IMG/VR virus record: IMGVR_UViG_3300030116_002175
Location: 27,231-49,044 of that record
DNA from: a virus
DNA: 21,814 nucleotides
Reading direction: 5' to 3' (one strand)
The notes below the pieces were generated by a model that saw only the letters and a program-made list of their open reading frames with translations, was not told the DNA's origin and did not search any database. The first letter of the stretch is position 1. Each line of letters opens with the position of its first letter. Shown piece by piece: positions 1,894 to 14,933 of the stretch. The position numbers were made by a program, and so were the translations under genes.

Positions 1894-1948
1894 GAAGCCA
1901 CAATGCCTCCTTTCTGTGTTACTCATGGGTTGTGGCTTCGTTTTCTTT
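1894..1948 (+). terminator. 10-bp hairpin followed by a T-rich run; terminator or attenuator candidate
   Basis: GAAGCCACAA (1894-1903) and TTGTGGCTTC (1930-1939) are perfect reverse complements with a 26-base loop. GTTTTCTTT follows at 1940-1948. The long loop is unusual for an intrinsic terminator. The 3' arm ends about 10 bases before the primase Shine-Dalgarno (GGAGAGG, 1949-1955), so the hairpin may instead regulate primase expression. Confidence 0.45.
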
Positions 1949-1957
1949 GGAGAGGTT

Positions 1958-3475
1958 ATGGAGTTAGCAGAAAAGTTATTTAAATTATTTGAAGGTAATA
2001 AACGAGCCTACGGTGTTGTTGACCTTGATGAAAACGGTAGTGGTAAAAAGACTGGTGTATATAAGATAATTAAAAAGCCACCCGAAGTACAACACTGGAT
2101 TGACCATTTAAATGGTAAACAAGGTCTAGGTATTATACCTATTATGGATGATAATACTTGTTTATGGGGAGCTATCGATGTTGATAACTACCAAGTAGAC
2201 CATAAGAATTTAGTTGAAAGATTACGCAAAGAAAGAATTATAGGTTGGGTCGCAAGAAGTAAATCAGGTGGAGCCCATATATATTTCTTTTTTAAGGAAC
2301 CTATAAAAGCATCTACAGTAAAAAATAAACTTGCAGAGATTGCGTCAGGATTGGGGCAAGCTGAAGGTGAAGTGTTTCCTAAACAATCAGAAATATTAGT
2401 GGAGCGTGGTGATACTGGCAATGGATTAAACATGCCTTACTATAAAGGTAAGATGAGTACACGGTCTGTGTATGATCTTAAAACACTAGATGTACTATCA
2501 CCTGAGGAGTTTGTTAAAAAAGCCTCACAATATAAAATAGGTAAACAACAGTTTACTGATTATAAGATAAATGCCAATCAAGACAATCACTTACCCGATG
2601 GACCACCTTGTCTTCAACACTTATGCAGTATGGGTTTTGGCGAAGGGTCACGCAATAATGCTCTATTTAATCTAGGTGTTTACGCTCGCATGTTTGATGC
2701 TGATAACTGGGAGGCTTTGATACAAAGATATAATCTAGAGTATTTGAAACCCTCACTTTCACATGCTGAAGTTGGAGCAGTGATCAAGCAGTTGCAACGC
2801 AAAGATTACTTTTATAAATGTGAAGACCAACCTATAAAACCTTTTTGTAATAAAGAAGTGTGTGTCACACGCAAACATGGTGTTGGACCAAATGGTGTAC
2901 AGAACAGTATGTCAGCACTTACAAAAATAGATGGTGATCCACCCATCTGGATTTTAAATGTAGATGGACAAAGGTTAGAGTTAAGTACGGATGGATTAGT
3001 TTCACAAACAAGATTCCAAAAAGATTGTGTATCACAGATAAATAGATTACCAAGAACAGTAAGTCAAAATGCTTGGCAGACAAGAATACAATTACTGTTG
3101 GATAGTTTAACTATTGTAGAAGTGCCACCAGATGCTACTATTAAAGGTGAGTTTGAAGATTTACTGCATTCCTTTTGTAGTGAAAGAGCAAGGGGTGTGG
3201 AACGTGAAGATATTTTGCAAGGAGTTGCAGTATGGATGGATGGAAAAGTTTACTTTCAAGTTAAAGATATTAAGAAACATCTTTCAGTAAATGATTTTAA
3301 CCATTACTCTTCTTCTAAAATAACTTTACGATTACAGAATATAGAGGCTGATAAAATGTTTTGGCGAGTCAAAGGTAAGGGAATACATGTATGGTCGTTA
3401 CCACAAGAGTATTTTGAAACAGATGATGAGCCTATGAAGTTACCTGACATACCTAAACAAGAAGATGTAATATAA
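1958..3475 (+). CDS. Archaeo-eukaryotic-type primase of the TOTE/AEP family
   Basis: This encodes a 505-residue DNA primase. The ATG at 1958 is chosen for its GGAGAGG site; an upstream in-frame start at 1916 lies inside the hairpin region. AEP motifs are visible: the metal-binding pair A-I-D-V-D (D74, D76), S-K-S-G-G-A-H (S101-H107), and E-V-F-P-K-Q (138-143) followed by G-N-G-L-N-M-P-Y. A helical middle region leads to a cysteine cluster (C288, C297, C302) followed by T-R-K-H-G, which may bind metal. The C-terminus (about 400-500) looks like a winged-helix domain. It synthesises primers for replication. It overlaps the helicase start by one base (TAATG), so the two proteins are probably made together. 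Confidence 0.8.
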   Translation: MELAEKLFKLFEGNKRAYGVVDLDENGSGKKTGVYKIIKKPPEVQHWIDHLNGKQGLGIIPIMDDNTCLWGAIDVDNYQVDHKNLVERLRKERIIGWVARSKSGGAHIYFFFKEPIKASTVKNKLAEIASGLGQAEGEVFPKQSEILVERGDTGNGLNMPYYKGKMSTRSVYDLKTLDVLSPEEFVKKASQYKIGKQQFTDYKINANQDNHLPDGPPCLQHLCSMGFGEGSRNNALFNLGVYARMFDADNWEALIQRYNLEYLKPSLSHAEVGAVIKQLQRKDYFYKCEDQPIKPFCNKEVCVTRKHGVGPNGVQNSMSALTKIDGDPPIWILNVDGQRLELSTDGLVSQTRFQKDCVSQINRLPRTVSQNAWQTRIQLLLDSLTIVEVPPDATIKGEFEDLLHSFCSERARGVEREDILQGVAVWMDGKVYFQVKDIKKHLSVNDFNHYSSSKITLRLQNIEADKMFWRVKGKGIHVWSLPQEYFETDDEPMKLPDIPKQEDVI

Positions 3476-4992
3476 TGAAGATTGTAGTTGGACCTCCTGG
3501 AACTGGAAAGACTACAAAGCTATTATCATTAGTAGAACAATACCTAGCTTCTGGAGTGCCTCCAGATAAAATTGGTTACTTTGCTTTTACAAGAAGAGCA
3601 GCGAATGAAGCTATTGAAAGAGCATGTGAAAAATTTAAATTAGTAAAGCGTGACTTACCTTATTTTAGAACACTCCACAGCCTAGCGTTTATGCAGATAG
3701 GTATAAGCCACTCACAAATACTTACACAAAGTAAATATAAAGAAATATCTGACTGGCTTAAGATCGGTAACTTTTACGGACAAATGGATCAAGCTGATAG
3801 CCCCTTTAAGGATTATGGTTATGGAGATAAATTTTTAGAGATTATAAATATGTCTAGAATTTTACAACAACCTCTACGTTCTGTTTACAACTCTTCTACT
3901 GTGCCAATGCGTACTGATTGGTCAAGAGTGGATTATGTAAATCGTGGGTTACAAAGATGGAAGCAAGTTTATGACTTATATGATTATACAGATATGTTAG
4001 AATCATTTTGTAAAAGAGAGTTATCGCCAAGACTAGAGGCTGTGTTTATTGATGAAGCACAAGACTTATCACCCCTTCAGTGGCAAATGGTTCATCAGTT
4101 ACAAAACAATACTAAAGAAATATATGTAGCAGGAGATGATGACCAAGCTATATTTAGGTATGCTGGAGCAGATGTGGATTACTTTATAAACCTAGATGGA
4201 GAGGTTACTGTGTTAAATCAAAGTTATAGGATACCGTCCTTACACCATAAATTAAGTCAAAGTGTGATCAGTAAAGTCGTGGGTAGGAGACAAAAAGCGT
4301 TCTTGCCAAGAGCAGAACAAGGCACAGTGAACTGGTACAGACACTCAGAGATGGTTGACATATCGGATGGAGACTGGTTATTGTTAAGTAGAACAACTCG
4401 TGGTGCTAAACAACTTGAGGAAGAAGTAAGAAGGCGAGGACATTTATATATCTATAACGGAAGTAACTCGATTGATAATAAAGTTTTGGAAGCTGTAAGA
4501 CTCTGGGAAAAATTAAGGTCAGGTGAAAGGTTAAGGATGGAACAAGTAAAAGTCGTCTACAAACAAATGTTATTAGGAAAACAAGTAGAGTATGGACATA
4601 AGACTTTACCCAAAGCGAAGGAAGGTGAATTTTATAGTCTACAAGATTTAAAAGACTTTCATGGATTATTACATAATCTTCCTTGGGATGAGGGGTTAGG
4701 TAAGATAGCTGAGTCGGATAGGCGATATATTAAGGCTTGTCTTCGTAAAGGTGAATCATTAACAGCGACGCCACGCATAAGAATCTCTACTATTCATTCT
4801 GCAAAAGGAGCTCAGGCTACAAATGTTCTAATGTTGACAGATACAATGCGTCGATCATATTCTATGTGGCGAAGGTTTGATAATGCACACTATGATGAAG
4901 CTAGGGTCTTTTATGTTGGTTTAACTAGAGCGATAAAAAATCTACACTTGATACAACCTATGTACTCACAAGGATACTCCATACCAAACTAA
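3475..4992 (+). CDS. Superfamily 1 (UvrD/Rep-like) DNA helicase
   Basis: This encodes a 505-residue helicase with the complete SF1 motif set: Walker A G-P-P-G-T-G-K-T-T (6-14), motif Ia with A-F-T-R-R-A-A, Walker B F-I-D-E-A-Q-D (D193, E194), motif III G-D-D-D-Q-A-I-F (around 221-228), motif IV N-Q-S-Y-R-I-P (248-254), motif V S-T-I-H-S-A-K-G (438-445) and motif VI V-G-L-T-R-A (481-486). All ATP-binding and arginine residues I can check are intact. It would unwind duplex DNA at the fork or during recombination. It is shorter than UvrD and closer in size to Dda-like phage helicases. The start overlaps the primase stop. Confidence 0.93.
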   Translation: MKIVVGPPGTGKTTKLLSLVEQYLASGVPPDKIGYFAFTRRAANEAIERACEKFKLVKRDLPYFRTLHSLAFMQIGISHSQILTQSKYKEISDWLKIGNFYGQMDQADSPFKDYGYGDKFLEIINMSRILQQPLRSVYNSSTVPMRTDWSRVDYVNRGLQRWKQVYDLYDYTDMLESFCKRELSPRLEAVFIDEAQDLSPLQWQMVHQLQNNTKEIYVAGDDDQAIFRYAGADVDYFINLDGEVTVLNQSYRIPSLHHKLSQSVISKVVGRRQKAFLPRAEQGTVNWYRHSEMVDISDGDWLLLSRTTRGAKQLEEEVRRRGHLYIYNGSNSIDNKVLEAVRLWEKLRSGERLRMEQVKVVYKQMLLGKQVEYGHKTLPKAKEGEFYSLQDLKDFHGLLHNLPWDEGLGKIAESDRRYIKACLRKGESLTATPRIRISTIHSAKGAQATNVLMLTDTMRRSYSMWRRFDNAHYDEARVFYVGLTRAIKNLHLIQPMYSQGYSIPN

Positions 4993-6894: not shown

Positions 6895-7066
6895 AAAGTG
6901 TGATGAACGCATAACAATTAGGCGAGTAGAGTTAGGTTACTCTACTTGCTTAACTTGTGGTGAAGCAGAGGCAAAGCAAGTTACTCACACTGTTGTGCCA
7001 ATGCACAAATCTAATTATGTTGTGATTACCAACATGAAACATTTAATAGGAGTAAATGTAAAATGA
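6884..7066 (+). CDS. Small zinc-ribbon protein
   Basis: This encodes a 60-residue protein. The ATG at 6884 is chosen over an in-frame start at 6800, because the extra residues would be a shadow of the upstream gene and the cysteine domain begins here. Residues 3-6 are C-R-K-C and a second C-L-T-C follows about 20 residues later, the spacing of a zinc ribbon like the C-terminal part of TraR/DksA proteins; E-R-I-T-I-R-R-V-E between them resembles that group. The long DksA coiled coil is absent. It ends in an ATGA overlap with the hypermodification gene at 7063. A regulatory or nucleic-acid-binding role is inference. Confidence 0.6.
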   Translation: MKCRKCDERITIRRVELGYSTCLTCGEAEAKQVTHTVVPMHKSNYVVITNMKHLIGVNVK

Positions 7067-7962
7067 TAGAAAATTTTTACGAGTGGATAAATGAACGTCA
7101 TTCCATTTATCTCGCTAGAGTTAGGGGGGACAGTCCACCATGGACTGAAGACCCTATTTTGCGTGAATATAAATTTACAAATCCATTTAGGGAAAACGAC
7201 CGTACTACTGTGTGGATGAGGCAAAACTGGACAAAGCCTAATGACAATAAGAAGGCTGGAGAAATAATTTTTAATTGTTGTATGTTCAGAATGATAGGCA
7301 CAATAGAGTTTGCAAATGCTCATGGTTGGGTCAACGCTGATGCACTGGAGTGGGATCCTGATAAAACAGTAGCCTTAATTGAAGATAGATTAAAACAAGG
7401 TTTACGAACATTTACTGGAGCGTATATTATAACTAATCAAGGTATTAAGAAACCAAAGTCGGAGGTAGTTGTATATGAGTTCCTTGTTCCGATATACCAA
7501 AACCAAGTCATGCTTGGGTCGGTGGCAACCGAAAGTCAGTCGCTTCAAGCCTTACACAAAGTGTTGGCTACCTATAAAGGGTGGGGAGGCGGAGGCTTTA
7601 TGTCATACGAAGTCGTTTCCGACCTCAACTACACATCTGTATTGGACAAGGCGAAAGACCGTTTTACTTGGGCAAACGCAGGACCAGGAGCAATGAGGGG
7701 TATTAATAGAATACATGGCTATGACCTAAAAAGAATGCACTCTCAAGAAAGAGCTAACAGATTTATGCAAGACATATTAGCTGAAAAGCATAAGTATCTT
7801 GACATAGAAGTAGTAAATGCTTTTGATGTAGACATGCGAACTATTGAGCATAGCTTGTGTGAGTGGGACAAGTATGAAAGAGTTAGGCTTGGTCAGGGCA
7901 AACCAAGAAGTAAATTTAAAGAAGTAATGTTGCCCATACCGAAAGGACCAGTCAATGAGTAG
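7063..7962 (+). CDS. Alpha-glutamyl/putrescinyl thymine pyrophosphorylase-family protein (amino acid:DNA transferase-like)
   Basis: This encodes a 299-residue protein matching the helical domain family named after 5-hmdU DNA kinases (HMUDK_hel) and the aGPT-PPlase group. Signature stretches are W-T-E-D-P-I-L-R-E-Y-K-F-T-N (about 27-40), R-E-N-D-R-T-T-V-W near 43-51, F-T-G-A-Y-I-I-T near 115, G-P-G-A-M-R-G-I (207-214) and L-C-E-W-D-K-Y-E-R-V-R-L-G (from 265). In phages with hypermodified thymidine, members of this family replace pyrophosphate on activated 5-hydroxymethyluracil in DNA with an amine-bearing group. There is no fused P-loop kinase domain and none elsewhere in this window. It is ATGA-coupled to the zinc-ribbon gene and overlaps the glycosyltransferase gene by 8 bases. 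Confidence 0.8.
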   Translation: MIENFYEWINERHSIYLARVRGDSPPWTEDPILREYKFTNPFRENDRTTVWMRQNWTKPNDNKKAGEIIFNCCMFRMIGTIEFANAHGWVNADALEWDPDKTVALIEDRLKQGLRTFTGAYIITNQGIKKPKSEVVVYEFLVPIYQNQVMLGSVATESQSLQALHKVLATYKGWGGGGFMSYEVVSDLNYTSVLDKAKDRFTWANAGPGAMRGINRIHGYDLKRMHSQERANRFMQDILAEKHKYLDIEVVNAFDVDMRTIEHSLCEWDKYERVRLGQGKPRSKFKEVMLPIPKGPVNE

Positions 7963-8767
7963 CACAATGATCTATATTCCTACACGAGGTAGGATAAGCA
8001 CACAAACAACTTGGCATAGTATAGGCGATTGGGCAAGAGCAAATGCTTGTTTAGTTTGCCCTGAAGATGAAATGAGTTATCATGTTAAGTATGGTAGAAA
8101 CTGTTTATCAAGAGGCGACATTAAGGGCATCAATAATGTACGATCTTTCATAATGCAACATGCAGTAGACAATCAAATTGAAAAAATAATTATGCTTGAT
8201 GATGACTTAATATTTGGTAGAAGAGCAAGTAATGATGCACCTAATCTACGCAAAACAACACAAGAAGAAATGGAACAGTTGTGGCAACGAATGTTTCATT
8301 TACTTGACAGATATGTTCATGTTGGGTTAAGTCCTCGCCAAATGAATGATAAACATTTTCCTGCCGTAACAAAGTATGGCATGAGGATGAACGCAGTACA
8401 TGGTATAAGACCAATGGGTGTAGCTCAATACAATATAAAATACAATGATGTAGAACTTATGGAAGATTATTTTGTGACATTATCTTTATTTGCAAATGGA
8501 GAGCCTAGTGCTACCATAGTAGATTGGACATGGGATCAACGTGGTGGTAGTGGACAAAGCGGAGGGTGTAGTAATTATAGGACACCTGAGTTACAAGAGA
8601 AAGCTAGTTTTAAATTAGCCGAACTGTTTCCTGACTTTGTTAAAGTTGTGGAAAAAGAAACCAAAACTGGTTGGGAAGGAATGAAAAAAAGATATGACGT
8701 TAGAGTACAATGGCGACGAGCGTTTAAGGCAGGATGCCCCAAATTCAATCCAAGTGGAGCTAACTGA
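7955..8767 (+). CDS. GT-A-type glycosyltransferase, TAGT-like (DNA base modification)
   Basis: This encodes a 270-residue protein. It begins with I-Y-I-P-T-R-G-R (6-13), a nucleotide-sugar-binding start typical of the TET-associated glycosyltransferase (TAGT) family. The metal-binding acidic cluster is M-L-D-D-D-L (D82-D84), and a second acidic pair (E170, D171, in L-M-E-D-Y) fits the usual catalytic or substrate region of GT-A enzymes. A glycine-serine-rich loop (R-G-G-S-G-Q-S-G-G) lies near residue 195. TAGTs are predicted to add sugars to hydroxymethylated bases in phage DNA. No TET/JBP oxygenase is in this window, so 5-hydroxymethyluracil would come from the nucleotide pool. The family call is from motif memory; another GT-A family is possible. 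Confidence 0.62.
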   Translation: MSSTMIYIPTRGRISTQTTWHSIGDWARANACLVCPEDEMSYHVKYGRNCLSRGDIKGINNVRSFIMQHAVDNQIEKIIMLDDDLIFGRRASNDAPNLRKTTQEEMEQLWQRMFHLLDRYVHVGLSPRQMNDKHFPAVTKYGMRMNAVHGIRPMGVAQYNIKYNDVELMEDYFVTLSLFANGEPSATIVDWTWDQRGGSGQSGGCSNYRTPELQEKASFKLAELFPDFVKVVEKETKTGWEGMKKRYDVRVQWRRAFKAGCPKFNPSGAN

Positions 8768-9734
8768 AGGTTGTAACCTCGCTTGTTCTTTCTGTGGTAT
8801 ACAACAGATTCGTGACAATGGTGCTGATGGTCCAAGTTGGACTCACGGTAAAAATTCAAAAGAGTATAAGTTTATGACTAAAGAAACTTTGTATTCTATA
8901 ATTAATACAGTCAAAAACAGCAACTGGAATCCTAGGTTTGAGTTTGCAATGCACGGTGAACCTACCATGCACCCTGAGTACAAAGAGTTTATTCATATCG
9001 TGCGAACAAGTTTACCAAAAGCCTCTATCATGATGACAAGTAATGGTGGAGGTTTGCTTGGTGATGTCAATACAAAAGTAAACGAACTTATGGAAGCTGG
9101 ACTTAACATATTATTTTTAGATAATTATGAAAGAATTAGGATAGTGGACAAAATAAAAGAAAAATACAATGGTCCATACAAAGTTGTAGAATATCCACAA
9201 AACCCAGAAGGCAACCCTCACAAACGAAAAAAGCCTCATGAAAAAATTATTGTAGTTGGTGCTGACCTTACTATTGCAACGAGTGGAACACACGCACAAG
9301 TCAGTAACCATGCTGGATCAGCCTTCCCACTAAACCACAAGCAACAAGGAAAAAGATGTGCAAAACCTTTCCGTGAGTTAAGTGTTCGTTGGGACGGTAA
9401 TGTAGCAGTTTGTTGTAATGACTGGACTGGGATTTATAAATGTGGTAATGTAAATGATTATGCAAAAATAGATGACTTATGGAACAATGATGCTTTTTAT
9501 TCTGCAAGAGTAAAACTTTACCACGGACAACGAGACTTCGGTCCATGCAATGGTTGTGATAATACTACTATCCGTAATGGGTTACTGCCTGACCGTATGG
9601 GTAAACAAGACTTACCATTACCTGATAAGACGACTAATTACTTTATTGATAAAGCGTGTGGTGGTAATAGTTATACTAAAGCAGTGAAGCCAGTTTATGA
9701 CTTTATTAACTTGCCCTCTGACAAGTTGATTTAG
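8694..9734 (+). CDS. Radical SAM enzyme with SPASM-like C-terminal cysteine region
   Basis: This encodes a 346-residue protein. The 4Fe-4S/SAM motif is C-N-L-A-C-S-F-C (C27, C31, C34), preceded by S-I-Q-V-E-L-T-E-G. A-M-H-G-E-P-T-M-H-P follows as the usual SAM-ligand strand. The C-terminal part has R-C-A-K-P-F, W-D-G-N-V-A-V-C-C-N-D-W and finally P-C-N-G-C, typical of SPASM or twitch auxiliary iron-sulfur clusters. The ATG at 8694 lies within the end of the glycosyltransferase gene, giving a 74-base overlap; later in-frame starts would cut into the core. Radical SAM enzymes occur in phage thymidine-hypermodification loci, where they rearrange the attached amino acid; that role here is inferred from position. 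Confidence 0.85.
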   Translation: MTLEYNGDERLRQDAPNSIQVELTEGCNLACSFCGIQQIRDNGADGPSWTHGKNSKEYKFMTKETLYSIINTVKNSNWNPRFEFAMHGEPTMHPEYKEFIHIVRTSLPKASIMMTSNGGGLLGDVNTKVNELMEAGLNILFLDNYERIRIVDKIKEKYNGPYKVVEYPQNPEGNPHKRKKPHEKIIVVGADLTIATSGTHAQVSNHAGSAFPLNHKQQGKRCAKPFRELSVRWDGNVAVCCNDWTGIYKCGNVNDYAKIDDLWNNDAFYSARVKLYHGQRDFGPCNGCDNTTIRNGLLPDRMGKQDLPLPDKTTNYFIDKACGGNSYTKAVKPVYDFINLPSDKLI

Positions 9735-9767
9735 TGGTAGGTAGGTTAGGTGCAAAACACAACGCTC

Positions 9768-9784
9768 CGCCCCTCGAGAGGGCG
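9768..9784 (+). other. Short GC-rich hairpin upstream of the TS-family gene
   Basis: CGCCC (9768-9772) pairs with GGGCG (9780-9784), with one more C-G pair and a bulged A around loop TCGA. It is unusually GC-rich for this region and lies 27 bases before the TS-family start. No T run follows, so termination is unlikely. It may mark an mRNA processing or translational control site, or be chance. Confidence 0.25.
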
Positions 9785-9811
9785 TATACAACCTCAAAGA
9801 AAGGGGGACTT

Positions 9812-10807
9812 ATGTTAAAACAACTATCTGGAGTGCATACCTTTGTCGTAGGTAACGTAGCTGAAGCTCTTTACCTTACAATACAATCATTGAAAGAAAG
9901 TGGTATAGAGGTAGAAACTAGGAATGGCTCAGCAAAAGAGTTTCCTATGCCAGTTGCTATCACTTACAATAAACCTTTGGAGAGAGTTATATATTATCCT
10001 GAACGTGATGCTAATCCAGTGTTTCACTTTATGGAATCACTCTGGATGCTAAATGGTAATAATGACCTACAGTCTATTGAGTATTTTAATAAACGTATGC
10101 GTGACTTTAGTGATGATGGTGAGTGGCTACATGGTGCTTATGGTCATAGATGGCGTAGACATTTTGTAATCGACCAACTACAAATTATTATTCGCAGACT
10201 TAAATCTATACCTAATGATAGACGGTCAGTGCTTACCATGTGGGATCCACACGCTGATTTATTAGAACACAATGCTAGAAAAGACTTACCATGTAATACT
10301 CATGTATATTTTACAATAAGAAACAAAAAGTTACATATGACAGTATGTAATAGAAGTAATGATTTGATATGGGGTTGTTGTGGTGCTAATGCTGTGCATA
10401 TGAGTTACTTACAAGAATACGTTGCAACAATGGTTGGTGTAGAGGTAGGGACATACACACAGTTTACACAAAACCTTCATGCTTATAATAGTGTTTTGAA
10501 AACATTAGTAGACATGCAACCAGACTATGATTCTTATGATACACGAGGGTTTGAATATCAAGCACCTTTGATAAATGACAAAGACTTGTTTGATTATGAA
10601 TTACAAGCCTTTATGGATGGAAGCATAAACAGAGATTTTAGAAATAATATTTTTACAGAAGTAGCTCTCCCAATGTTTTGGTTATGGGAAGCATGGAAAA
10701 GTAAAAATCATATGGAGTGCATGACAGCTATATCACAAATACAATCGGATGATTGGCGTTTGGCATGTAGAGAATGGATAGATAGAAGGAGTGATAAATT
10801 AAAATGA
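9812..10807 (+). CDS. Thymidylate synthase family protein (ThyA-type TS or dUMP hydroxymethylase)
   Basis: This encodes a 331-residue enzyme. The ATG at 9812 follows AAAGGGGG; the in-frame start at 9734 would add an unrelated N-terminus. TS landmarks are present: F-H-F-M-E-S-L-W-M-L-N-G (Glu75), D-R-R-S-V (R137-R138), catalytic Cys161 in L-P-C-N-T-H, phosphate-binding R-S-N-D (181-184), the pyrimidine-contacting Asn193 in G-A-N-A-V, and N-L-H-A-Y (221-225). Asn rather than Asp at the base-recognition position points to dUMP rather than dCMP. The G-A-N-A-V-H variant differs from the cellular P-F-N-I-A and resembles phage enzymes. Because it sits with hypermodification genes, it may make 5-hydroxymethyl-dUMP; sequence alone cannot separate the two activities. 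Confidence 0.88.
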   Translation: MLKQLSGVHTFVVGNVAEALYLTIQSLKESGIEVETRNGSAKEFPMPVAITYNKPLERVIYYPERDANPVFHFMESLWMLNGNNDLQSIEYFNKRMRDFSDDGEWLHGAYGHRWRRHFVIDQLQIIIRRLKSIPNDRRSVLTMWDPHADLLEHNARKDLPCNTHVYFTIRNKKLHMTVCNRSNDLIWGCCGANAVHMSYLQEYVATMVGVEVGTYTQFTQNLHAYNSVLKTLVDMQPDYDSYDTRGFEYQAPLINDKDLFDYELQAFMDGSINRDFRNNIFTEVALPMFWLWEAWKSKNHMECMTAISQIQSDDWRLACREWIDRRSDKLK

Positions 10808-11239: not shown

Positions 11240-11408
11240 AGTAACATTAGACTCAAAAGCCATAGCTTACTGCGAAAGCTGTAATGTAAGAATAGAAACA
11301 ACTATGAGAAAATTAAAAAACAAATGGAATATATGTATGAAGTGCAATACTCCAATGAAAGTAAAGGTAATAAAAGATGCAGTTCCCTCTGTTCACGCCA
11401 CCGACTGA
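11232..11408 (+). CDS. Small zinc-ribbon protein (58 aa)
   Basis: The ATG at 11232 overlaps the previous stop by 8 bases. Residues 14-17 are C-E-S-C and a C-M-K-C pair follows about 18 residues later, separated by a basic segment (R-K-L-K-N-K-W), forming a likely single zinc ribbon. Its last 32 bases overlap the DNA polymerase start. It is too small for catalysis; a nucleic-acid or polymerase-accessory role is possible but not shown. Confidence 0.55.
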   Translation: MNKVTLDSKAIAYCESCNVRIETTMRKLKNKWNICMKCNTPMKVKVIKDAVPSVHATD

Positions 11409-13284
11409 ATGGGTTATGCCAGATGGCTACCCAGACTTAACACACGCAAAAGAAGTAGCGATAGATTTAGAAACACGTGATCCTAACTTACTATCACACG
11501 GTAGTGGTTGGGCTAGAGGTGACGGTGAGGTTATAGGTGTAGCAGTATCAGCAGGATCTGACTCATGGTACTTTCCTATACGACACTTCAATGGTGGTAA
11601 CCTAGACCCTAAACAAACTCTGGCTTGGGTAAAAGATTTATGTAGTGTTGACCGTGATTACATTATGCACAATGCTCTGTATGATGCTGGATGGTTGTGG
11701 CGAGAGGGTATAGAAGTAAAGGGCAGGATTATTGATACGATGATTGTAGGTGCGTTACTTGATGAAAACAGATTTAGTTATGCCCTCAACGCTCTTGGCA
11801 GAGATTACTTGAGTGAACGTAAGAACGAGGCTGAATTAAATGAAGCCGCTCAGTCGTTTGGAGTCAACGCAAAAAGCGAGATGTGGAAACTTCCTGCTCA
11901 CTTTGTAGGTGCTTATGCAGAACAAGATGCAAGTTTAACTTTGAGGTTATGGAAACGATTCCAAAGTGAAATGCAAAAAGAAGACATACAAGATATATTT
12001 GATTTAGAAACAAATGTATTAAGAGTTGTATTAGCTATGCGGAAGCAAGGTGTAAGAGTAGATTTAGAAAAAGCTGAACACCTTAAAGTCCAGTTAGAAA
12101 AACAAGAGAAAGAAGTGTTACACTCTGTAGGTGGCAGTGACATTGACATCTGGGCGGCTCAGTCCATTGCGAAAGCGTTTGATAAAGTCGGACTACGTTA
12201 CCCTCGTACACAGAAGATTGATGCTCCAAGTTTCACCAAAAACTTTCTAGCTAACCATGAACATGAATTACCTCGTGCAGTTGTAAGAGCTAGGGAACTT
12301 AATAAAGCTAGAACAACCTTTATTGATACTATACTTAAACATCAACACAATGGTCGTATCTTTGCTGAGGCACACCCACTCCGTAGTGATGGTGGTGGCA
12401 CAGTCACTGGTAGATTTAGTTACACTAATCCTAACTTACAACAAGTTCCAGCTCGTAATGCTGAGATTGGTCCTATGATACGCAGTTTATTTTTACCTGA
12501 AGAAGATAGCTTGTGGGGAGCATTTGATTATAGTAGCCAAGAGCCACGACTCGTTGTTCACTATGCTGGATTGATGAACTTTACGGGAGCACAAAAGTTT
12601 GTTGCTGAGTACCAAAAAGATAGACTTACTGACTTCCATCAGCTCGCGGCAGATATTGTAGGAGTACCACGAAAGCAAGCGAAAGATATAAACTTGGGTC
12701 TATTCTACGGTATGGGCAAGAATAAATTAGCAGAGCAGTTAGGTTTAGAGTATGAAGATGCACAAGAACTGTTCGCTCAATACCATGCTAAAGTTCCTTT
12801 CGTGCAAGAGTTAGCAACATTTGCTATGAATAAAGCAAGTAAGAAAGGTGTAATAAGAACATTACTTGGTCGTAAGTGTAGGTTTGATAAGTGGGAGCCA
12901 AACATGTATGGAACATTTAAGCCTATGTCTTATGAAGATGCGTATGCAGAACATGGTCCAGCGATTAAAAGATGCTTTACTTATAAAGCACTCAACAAAC
13001 TAATACAAGGATCAGCGGCTGATCAAACAAAACAAGCGATGGTAGCCCTACACAAAGAGGGTATTATACCAATGATACAAGTACATGATGAGTTAGATAT
13101 TAGTGTAGGGAGTGAAAAAGAATGCGAAGTAATCACAGAAATAATGCAGGACTGCGTGTCCTTGGAAGTACCGAGCGTGGTAGACGCGGAACTTGGTCCA
13201 AGTTGGGGACAAGCAAAACAAACACTGAGCGACAAACCGTGGACAAGGGGGATAAAAAGTGGACACAGCGAGCAACCAAATTAA
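11377..13284 (+). CDS. polA: Family A DNA polymerase with 3'-5' exonuclease domain
   Basis: This encodes a 635-residue replicative polymerase. The exonuclease domain has D30/E32 (D-L-E-T), H-N-A-L-Y-D (98-103) and Y-A-E-Q-D (D184), so proofreading should work. There is no 5'-3' exonuclease domain, as in T7-type phage polymerases. In the polymerase domain, motif A is D-Y-S-S-Q-E (D384, E389), motif B is R432-x3-K436-x3-L440-G-L-F-Y444-G, and motif C is V-H-D-E (569-572). The residue equivalent to E. coli Phe762 is Leu440. The gene overlaps the zinc-ribbon gene by 32 bases and the HD gene by 26. It is likely the genome replicase working with the primase and helicase encoded upstream. Confidence 0.95.
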   Translation: MQFPLFTPPTEWVMPDGYPDLTHAKEVAIDLETRDPNLLSHGSGWARGDGEVIGVAVSAGSDSWYFPIRHFNGGNLDPKQTLAWVKDLCSVDRDYIMHNALYDAGWLWREGIEVKGRIIDTMIVGALLDENRFSYALNALGRDYLSERKNEAELNEAAQSFGVNAKSEMWKLPAHFVGAYAEQDASLTLRLWKRFQSEMQKEDIQDIFDLETNVLRVVLAMRKQGVRVDLEKAEHLKVQLEKQEKEVLHSVGGSDIDIWAAQSIAKAFDKVGLRYPRTQKIDAPSFTKNFLANHEHELPRAVVRARELNKARTTFIDTILKHQHNGRIFAEAHPLRSDGGGTVTGRFSYTNPNLQQVPARNAEIGPMIRSLFLPEEDSLWGAFDYSSQEPRLVVHYAGLMNFTGAQKFVAEYQKDRLTDFHQLAADIVGVPRKQAKDINLGLFYGMGKNKLAEQLGLEYEDAQELFAQYHAKVPFVQELATFAMNKASKKGVIRTLLGRKCRFDKWEPNMYGTFKPMSYEDAYAEHGPAIKRCFTYKALNKLIQGSAADQTKQAMVALHKEGIIPMIQVHDELDISVGSEKECEVITEIMQDCVSLEVPSVVDAELGPSWGQAKQTLSDKPWTRGIKSGHSEQPN

Positions 13285-13780
13285 CTACGAAAAGTTAGAA
13301 ACTATATATGACGCACAATTTATTAATAGATATCACACTGTACCACTTGGCGGATTGAGACAAACAGTGGGTGCTCATTCATACGCAGTTGTAGTTTTAC
13401 TTGACCAGTTGTGGGATAATTGTTCTAAGAATTTATTACTATCAGCCCTTTACCATGATGTGCCAGAAATAGTTCTTGGTGATATTCCTGCGACTGCAAA
13501 GTGGTCATATCCTGATGTGCAAAAAGTATTTAAAAAAGCAGAACAAAAAGTTATGAAAGATCTTGATATAGATTTTGTTCTTACAGACCGTGAACTCAAT
13601 AGGTTAAAGATGGCAGATATGTTGGAGTTAGTCATGTATTGCCACAAACTAAACGATAGTAACCCTCGCATGAAACTTATTATGCAGACTGGTGTGAATT
13701 ACCTTATGGACAATTACTCTCAGCTTCCTGATTTTAATCCAGTAAAACAAGTACTTAGAAAATTAAATTTAGTCTTATGA
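13259..13780 (+). CDS. HD-domain 5'-deoxynucleotidase-like hydrolase (YfbR family)
   Basis: This encodes a 173-residue protein with a GTG start supported by AGGGGG at 13246-13251, inside the end of the polymerase gene. The HD metal-site residues are visible: H40 (G-A-H-S-Y), H66-D67 (A-L-Y-H-D), the following E-I-V-L-G-D-I-P, and D120 (K-M-A-D-M-L-E-L). The pattern matches YfbR-like enzymes, which dephosphorylate dNMPs, and related phage HD triphosphatases. Position beside PolA and downstream of the TS-family enzyme suggests control of the deoxynucleotide pool, for example removal of dTMP if the DNA carries a modified thymidine. Substrate cannot be read from sequence. Confidence 0.82.
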   Translation: MDTASNQINYEKLETIYDAQFINRYHTVPLGGLRQTVGAHSYAVVVLLDQLWDNCSKNLLLSALYHDVPEIVLGDIPATAKWSYPDVQKVFKKAEQKVMKDLDIDFVLTDRELNRLKMADMLELVMYCHKLNDSNPRMKLIMQTGVNYLMDNYSQLPDFNPVKQVLRKLNLVL

Positions 13781-14266: not shown

Positions 14267-14433
14267 AGATTACTGTTAAAGAACTAATAGAAGCGGCAGA
14301 AGCAATAAAATCTGATACTTCTTGGGTTAACGATAGTCATACTCAAGCAGAACATCGTGGTATTTGTGAAGGTCTAAATTGTCTCGTTGGACATTTTAAA
14401 TTAATGGAAAAACTTAAAAAGGGGCAAAAATGA
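14263..14433 (+). CDS. Small hypothetical protein (56 aa)
   Basis: The ATG at 14263 and the stop at 14431-14433 both form four-base ATGA overlaps with the flanking genes, strong evidence that this short frame is translated. The peptide is helical: an N-terminal E-L-I-E-A-A-E-A-I-K helix, a middle H-T-Q-A-E-H-R-G-I-C-E-G-L segment and a basic end. Function is unknown. Confidence 0.62.
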   Translation: MKITVKELIEAAEAIKSDTSWVNDSHTQAEHRGICEGLNCLVGHFKLMEKLKKGQK

Positions 14434-14933
14434 ATATATTTATGTTAGATAGTAATATGGACAAATGTGTTCAGTACCATTGTGATAAACATATTGTCAA
14501 AATGCCATTGGAAACTACGCAGATGGTGTGTACTATATCACATAAGGTAGCACCAATATCAGGACTTACTCCACCTTACTTGCCAGTTCATGCCAAGCAT
14601 CCTTGCACTCTGTGGGGTGGTTTGAACAAACGTAACTTCACTTGGCTCTGGTGGTTTGGAGTGGCTTTATGTGCAGAGTATGAGTATAGGTATGGTCGCA
14701 AACATGCTTGTGTAGACGTGTTGTATGATATTGCTTGTCAATGTTGGAATGATTTACCTCCAGGAGAGATGACAGAGCAACCACAAGCTATGCCTGATGA
14801 GTACAAAGACCCTGATGTTATTCAGGCTTATCGTAAATATTATTATTATGAAAAAAGTCGTTTCGCTAAATGGACAAAGCGACCACGACCATTCTTTATG
14901 GAGGAGGGATATTATGGAAAGATTGAAGCCTAA
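14430..14933 (+). CDS. Conserved phage protein with C-D-K-H-I-V-K-M motif, function unknown
   Basis: This encodes a 167-residue protein of a family I recall from many large phages. It opens with M-N-I-F-M-L-D and continues with H-C-D-K-H-I-V-K-M-P-L-E-T-T-Q-M (about 17-32), then H-P-C-T-L-W, N-F-T-W-L-W-W-F, C-A-E-Y-E-Y-R-Y-G, and a C-terminal Y-R-K-Y-Y-Y-Y-E-K. The many conserved Cys, His, Trp and Tyr residues suggest a metal- or nucleotide-binding enzyme, but no activity is established to my knowledge. The start is in an ATGA overlap behind AAAAGGGG. Its end overlaps the next gene by 20 bases. Confidence 0.75.
   Translation: MNIFMLDSNMDKCVQYHCDKHIVKMPLETTQMVCTISHKVAPISGLTPPYLPVHAKHPCTLWGGLNKRNFTWLWWFGVALCAEYEYRYGRKHACVDVLYDIACQCWNDLPPGEMTEQPQAMPDEYKDPDVIQAYRKYYYYEKSRFAKWTKRPRPFFMEEGYYGKIEA

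Follow-up and report, generated by a model that had tools for sequence, protein, structure and literature searches.

A Candidate Base-Modification Cassette in a Viral Contig

The stretch of viral DNA considered here, hereafter the window, comprises 21,814 nucleotides (G000:C1:27231-49044) of IMG/VR record IMGVR_UViG_3300030116_002175, which is 51,249 bases long. It belongs to a marine-type phage and holds a cassette of four consecutive plus-strand genes, encoding an HMUDK_hel-family protein, a TAGT-family glycosyltransferase, a radical S-adenosylmethionine (SAM) protein, and a thymidylate synthase (TS)-type enzyme. A preliminary description of this DNA had proposed that these genes form an operon for an amino-acid-derived and possibly glycosylated 5-hydroxymethyluracil (hmU). 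The four genes are real, and a hidden Markov model search places them in PF18723, PF20691, radical SAM/SPASM, and PF00303, in each case over the cutoff. Their arrangement is not a product of chance, because the identical gene set recurs in many viral contigs. The genes and their principal motifs are as follows:

7063-7962, + strand: HMUDK_hel protein (PF18723), 299 amino acids, all-alpha
7955-8767, + strand: TAGT-family GT-A glycosyltransferase (PF20691), 270 amino acids
8198-8206, + strand: codons of the TAGT DDD motif, residues 82-84
8694-9734, + strand: radical SAM protein with a twitch/SPASM-like auxiliary domain, 346 amino acids
8772-8795, + strand: radical SAM CX3CX2C motif (C27, C31, C34)
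9357-9557, + strand: auxiliary-cluster region of the radical SAM protein, C222-x17-C240 and C285-x2-C288
9812-10807, + strand: ThyA-superfamily enzyme, probable dUMP 5-hydroxymethylase (frame open from 9734)
10388-10390, + strand: codon of the base-reading Asn (GANAVH) of the TS-type enzyme

Three of the genes had been described as overlapping. The overlaps of 8 base pairs (7955-7962) and 74 base pairs (8694-8767) are real; the TS-type gene, however, probably starts at ATG 9812, which has a good Shine-Dalgarno sequence and is preceded by AAAGGGGG, and with this start it lies clear of the radical SAM gene.

Identity of the Cassette Proteins

The first gene scores 178 bits against PF18723 (Pfam cutoff 25). 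The family, formerly aGPT-PPlase clade 1, now bears the name "5-hmdU DNA kinase, helical domain" (5-hmdU, 5-hydroxymethyldeoxyuridine); the amino acid:DNA transferase (ADDT) is a different family, PF18724, and the earlier assignment of the first gene as such a transferase therefore does not hold. The AlphaFold2 model of the protein is entirely helical (pLDDT 91.4), and an alignment with 36 relatives contains 17 invariant columns. Sequence searches of the HMUDK_hel protein and of the TAGT against the PDB returned nothing credible.

The second gene matches PF20691 with 63.1 bits (Pfam cutoff 27.5) and PHROG 842 with 152 bits. The Y-I-P-T-R-G-R and D-D-D motifs pointed out in the preliminary description are conserved among its relatives as YIPTRGR and LDDDL, the latter invariant in 13 aligned proteins, that of Brevibacterium phage LuckyBarnes included. 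The Asp-rich motif is expected to serve metal and nucleotide-sugar binding.

The third gene matches radical SAM family PF04055 (38.7 bits, cutoff 29.5) and SPASM family PF13186 (36.8 bits, cutoff 21.5), with no NCBIfam match over the cutoff. The CX3CX2C motif, which should coordinate the SAM [4Fe-4S] cluster, and C222, C240, C285, and C288 do not vary among 16 relatives, the most distant of which is 46% identical. These are the cysteines first noticed as SPASM-like, and they can now be described more narrowly as matching a one-cluster "twitch" domain of the BtrN type. BtrN, the twitch radical SAM dehydrogenase of butirosin, is the top match both by sequence profile (E 5.7e-16, all four auxiliary cysteines in register) and by fold (E 3.3e-12, probability 1.0, TM 0.50/0.68), followed in the fold search by anSME, DesII, BlsE, and SpeY, among others. 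BtrN catalyzes the two-electron oxidation of a sugar-like ring hydroxyl on a free aminocyclitol, with the auxiliary cluster as the probable electron acceptor (PMC9012708), whereas the window protein, which is only ∼20% identical to it, presumably works on DNA. The radical SAM family is restricted to viruses, with 141 stretches in viral contigs versus a single match in 85,000 prokaryote genomes, and no member of it turned up among cultured phages.

The sole prokaryote-genome match (L364, JAGWWT010000024.1) lies on a 19-kb contig of a "Patescibacteria" metagenome-assembled genome, together with HMUDK_hel, TS, HD, and PolA genes and a fragment of a C5-type DNA methylase; it is probably a phage contig. 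A further family of 305-380 amino acids ("u12") recurs next to the genes for radical SAM, HMUDK_hel, and TS proteins (L337:8277-9221, L341:9267-10406, L343:6157-7083, L354:9766-10683, L358:9041-9970, and L364:7059-8144); neither Pfam nor a profile comparison with the glycosyltransferases gave a match for it.

The fourth gene scores 77.4 bits against PF00303 (Pfam cutoff 24.3). Its product is 45% identical to the enzyme of phage M6, and its nearest solved relatives are the MilA CMP 5-hydroxymethylases. The catalytic Cys and the base-reading Asn of "GANAVH," an Asn already recognized in the preliminary description, are invariant in 15 phage TS-type enzymes; cytosine-specific MilA has Asp at the latter position. 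The EWAxENG segment of thymidylate synthase, whose Trp is Trp80 of the E. coli enzyme, is replaced in the phage enzymes mostly by [FY]SDDG, a type of segment shared by the M6 enzyme and by one that carries the annotation deoxyuridylate hydroxymethyltransferase. Taken together, the Asn reader and the [FY]SDDG segment favor uracil over cytosine and hydroxymethylation over methylation, and the enzyme is probably a dUMP 5-hydroxymethylase.

These features bear on whether the cassette could instead make glycosylated 5-hydroxymethylcytosine (hmC), with the TS-type enzyme acting as a dCMP hydroxymethylase and the TAGT working as in phage T6. The relationship to a CMP hydroxymethylase fits this idea, as does the T2/T6 TAGT, a PF20691 GT-A glycosyltransferase like the window's that acts on phage DNA which already carries glucosylated hmC, the T6 enzyme adding a second glucose (PMC13216743); the window TAGT, in contrast, is "solitary" and lies within an hmU-type cassette. 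The base reader, moreover, is Asn rather than Asp in 15 of 15 aligned enzymes, HMUDK_hel is an hmU-pathway family, and the closest phage relatives are M6-like, with T rather than C modified (PMC11946847). We consider the hmC alternative very improbable.

Absence of a 5-hmdU Kinase and of ADDT

Whole-record searches for the 5-hmdU DNA kinase (PF18748) and ADDT (PF18724) covered the window's record with 41 relatives (G000+41), 36 records that carry distant TAGTs, and 37 in which the radical SAM gene occurs (one shared with the distant-TAGT set), which amounts to 113 related viral records besides the window's own. Phage M6 served as the positive control in every search, and phage Sonora additionally in those of the G000+41 set. 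Several of the searched relatives, at 57-69 kb, are longer than the window's own fragment. No match to the kinase, and no match to ADDT over the cutoff, was obtained in the window's 51-kb record or in the 113 related records. The preliminary description had suggested looking for a P-loop 5-hmdU kinase elsewhere on this genome; its absence from the record proved decisive, and the amino-acid-derived product is not borne out. In the absence of both genes from these records, a glycosylated, radical-tailored hmU that carries no amino acid is the more likely product.

M6, YuA, PaMx11, and ViI-type phages, which hypermodify thymidine, share with the window a ThyA enzyme of the dUMP hydroxymethylase type, HMUDK_hel, an HD protein, and PolA, in similar order. 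They differ in having a 5-hmdU DNA kinase and ADDT together with pyridoxal phosphate, flavin adenine dinucleotide, or acetyltransferase genes, whereas the window has a glycosyltransferase. M6 also has a radical SAM-type enzyme (gp053), which is unrelated to the window protein beyond the superfamily. An M6-like route to an amino-acid-derived thymidine would make HMUDK_hel the transferase, leave the remodeling of the amino acid to the radical SAM enzyme, and have the TAGT add a sugar as well. The resemblance of the TS-type enzyme to that of M6 is in its favor. So are weak, subthreshold ADDT scores in eight relatives; in the case that was checked the match is to the HMUDK_hel gene, as would fit a remote shared ancestry of HMUDK_hel and ADDT. 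This route is nevertheless improbable, given that more than 110 viral records offer neither ADDT nor a kinase to activate hmU and that the radical SAM protein is not gp053-like.

Recurrence of the Cassette and Exchange of Partners

Many uncultured phages carry the gene set, which had earlier been noticed only in part. Among 80 viral contigs with the radical SAM family, HMUDK_hel is present in 69, a TS-type gene in 73, and a recognized glycosyltransferase in 73, and none carries the kinase or ADDT; HMUDK_hel, TAGT, and a TS-type gene occur together in 40 of 43 contigs with distant TAGTs (33-49% identical to the window's), with the gene order varying. We note that these tallies come from local profiles built from the loci counted and that the contigs within each set are partly redundant. 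Some radical SAM contigs with no recognized glycosyltransferase do hold TAGT-like genes that the local profiles missed (u17, hhalign 98%). In L345, a TAGT (residues 1-197) and a radical SAM enzyme (277-533) are fused in one protein.

Nearly all environmental relatives have HMUDK_hel and a ThyA-type enzyme beside a glycosyltransferase, which is a TAGT or, as its replacement, a GT-B enzyme. At one site, close relatives of the window show two states: HMUDK_hel - TAGT - radical SAM - TS, or HMUDK_hel - a gene of 330-440 amino acids - TS. The replacing genes look like GT-B glycosyltransferases: a first group has Pfam glycosyltransferase matches in five of nine members and a weak match to a solved GT-B-type relative, and a second group shares 323 aligned columns with it (hhalign 97%, E 4e-11). 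No relative of the GT4-type GT-B replacement was found among cultured phages. In L068:11991-12728 and L337:5539-6321, FkbM-type methyltransferases (PF05050) lie inside similar cassettes and adjoin the glycosyltransferase or radical SAM gene; they may O-methylate a DNA sugar.

Two cultured phages contain the core of the cassette, LuckyBarnes with TS, two TAGTs, and HMUDK_hel, and Microbacterium phage Neferthena with TS, TAGT, and HMUDK_hel. Neither contains a PF18748 kinase by our searches, and the window differs from both in its added radical SAM gene. No cultured phage tested has both the kinase and a TAGT over the cutoffs. In LuckyBarnes (L006:7445-8995) and Montesquieu (L370:4998-6545) the TS-type proteins measure ∼516 amino acids, with a C-terminal half that has no family assignment; in Montesquieu this protein accompanies HMUDK_hel, with no recognized kinase or TAGT.

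Elsewhere the partner of HMUDK_hel is a kinase. Bacillus phage Goe26 has both in one chain of 636 amino acids, and in Sonora (L005) and M6 (L127) the P-loop 5-hmdU DNA kinase adjoins HMUDK_hel, with ADDT as a separate gene nearby. In a tree of 48 HMUDK_hel proteins, well-supported branches require the partner to have changed between kinase and glycosyltransferase at least four times, and two changes remain when long-branch rows are removed; a single kinase clade was rejected. Within the window's own group of ten rows, the glycosyltransferase type changes six times on a weakly resolved part of the tree. These changes of partner make HMUDK_hel look like a shared hmU-handling module, and the economical reading is that it handles or presents hmU in DNA on behalf of any catalytic partner that accompanies it. 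Microbacterium phages Golden (L365) and Neferthena (L369) have sister HMUDK_hel proteins with different partners, an adjacent PF18751 P-loop kinase plus ThyX in Golden and a TAGT plus a ThyA-type gene in Neferthena, and form a natural pair for the study of partner exchange.

Recurrence also bears on the simplest alternative, in which the glycosyltransferase and radical SAM protein modify the host surface or a metabolite and are merely neighbors of a plain thymidylate synthase. Glycosyltransferases are indeed common phage cargo genes, but the tight linkage with HMUDK_hel and a TS-type gene recurs in varied order across divergent viral contigs, and such an explanation seems to us extremely improbable. 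Glycosylation of hmC, a plain thymidylate synthase, and surface glycosylation were all considered and rejected.

The combination had been thought undescribed, which is true only in part. Pelagiphages were reported in 2022 to carry TS, aG/PT-PPlase1, 5'-deoxynucleotidase, and glucosyltransferase genes together, and a broader function was suggested (PMC9599517). The main text of that work reads the set of the HTVC023P-type cluster as M6-like hypermodification and mentions no radical SAM enzyme; the window PolA is closest to the polymerases of these phages, at 51-56% identity. Our literature search turned up no description of a radical SAM enzyme within a cassette of this kind, although remarks by Lee and by Iyer on combinatorial virome cassettes may touch on it.

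Proposed Pathway

These results support a base-modification operon that sets out from an enzyme of the dUMP hydroxymethylase type and also encodes a DNA-type glycosyltransferase and a radical SAM protein. We favor, with moderate confidence, a kinase-free glycosylation of hmU in which the BtrN-like enzyme tailors the DNA-bound sugar. The reactions, the sugar, and the order of steps given here are those that we infer from gene families and linkage. The ThyA-type enzyme would make 5-hydroxymethyl-dUMP, while the HD nucleotidase may deplete dTMP, and PolA would incorporate the resulting hmdUTP, with hmU most likely taking the place of thymine in the phage DNA. HMUDK_hel would then bind hmU in DNA and serve it to the glycosyltransferase, as partner swapping suggests, just as it would elsewhere to a P-loop kinase, in one phage within the same chain. 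The TAGT would move a sugar onto the hydroxymethyl oxygen. Last, the BtrN-like enzyme would abstract a hydrogen from the sugar and oxidize or epimerize it, with the auxiliary cluster as electron sink; our first guess is dehydrogenation to a keto-sugar. The modification would likely protect the DNA against host nucleases and glycosylases.

The product would be of the same kind as base J of kinetoplastids (glucosyl-hmU), with a sugar on hmU. Kinetoplastids form base J by oxidizing T within DNA, whereas the hmU of the window would arise at the nucleotide level. We know of no radical remodeling of a DNA-bound sugar, or of any reaction of this type on DNA.

Glycosylated hmU could also be reached with the radical SAM enzyme acting earlier, either on the hmU base or hydroxymethyl group while no sugar is yet attached, or on a nucleotide sugar that has still to be transferred. 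The M6 pathway includes radical SAM chemistry on a modified thymidine, in some loci the gene lies next to HMUDK_hel or TS and not next to the glycosyltransferase, and the fold neighbor DesII acts on a nucleotide sugar. Set against this are the TAGT-radical SAM fusion in L345, the near-constant presence of a glycosyltransferase, and BtrN as the nearest relative, which lead us to regard an early-acting enzyme as unlikely, though well worth keeping in mind.

Several observations weigh against the tailoring of a DNA-bound sugar on kinase-free hmU. The window's record is a 51-kb fragment and relatives reach 57-69 kb, and the absences hold for the records as assembled; a divergent kinase may have fallen below the Pfam threshold, the kinase of PaMx11 itself scoring only 17-18 bits. 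Confidence in the radical SAM model is moderate (pLDDT 70), and with an identity to BtrN of ∼20% the type of reaction is a guess. In some loci the radical SAM gene stands apart from the glycosyltransferase, or the glycosyltransferase belongs to another family, so the enzyme is not tied to TAGT alone. The fold of HMUDK_hel has no significant Foldseek match; the three top-ranked entries, two chains of the queuine salvage protein DUF2419 and one of OGG1, have E values of 0.3-1.1 and are suggestive of a DNA-glycosylase-like fold and are not evidence for one. Finally, hmU itself is deduced from the gene content.

A broader proposal, which we offer tentatively as a possibility, joins two ideas: that a virus-restricted and widespread radical SAM family remodels an hmU-attached sugar in phage DNA, and that HMUDK_hel is a general hmU-presenting module rather than part of a kinase, with its partners swapped several times. 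It would give a role to many of the "solitary" TAGTs, whose presence in 288 of 753 phage genomes was stated as an open question in 2026 (PMC13216743). If the proposal is correct, HMUDK_hel and solitary TAGTs would be parts of one widespread modular system for hmU glycosylation, radical chemistry on a DNA-bound sugar would join the known DNA modifications, and "aGPT-PPlase1" annotations would not imply modification with an amino acid. The idea can be tested quickly, since LuckyBarnes and Neferthena, cultured on Brevibacterium iodinum and Microbacterium foliorum, respectively, carry the core with no radical SAM gene.

Neighboring Genes and Other Observations

Downstream of the cassette lie two conserved neighbors:

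11377-13284, + strand: family A DNA polymerase (PolA)
13259-13780, + strand: HD/YfbR-like 5'-deoxynucleotidase

The nucleotidase (PF12917, 36.3 bits) is recurrent in these cassettes and may trim the dTMP pool. Upstream, a TOTE-type archaeo-eukaryotic primase adjoins a UvrD-like helicase (1916-4992), apparently a phage replication pair. Promoter and terminator scans gave results near chance. The record also encodes a large protein, L003:5849-8956, for which cultured phages yielded no match. At 14430-14933 there is a weak match to the pyrimidine dimer DNA glycosylase family PF03013 (22.7 bits, just below the cutoff), and this gene holds a similar position in the neighborhood in eight of ten close relatives.

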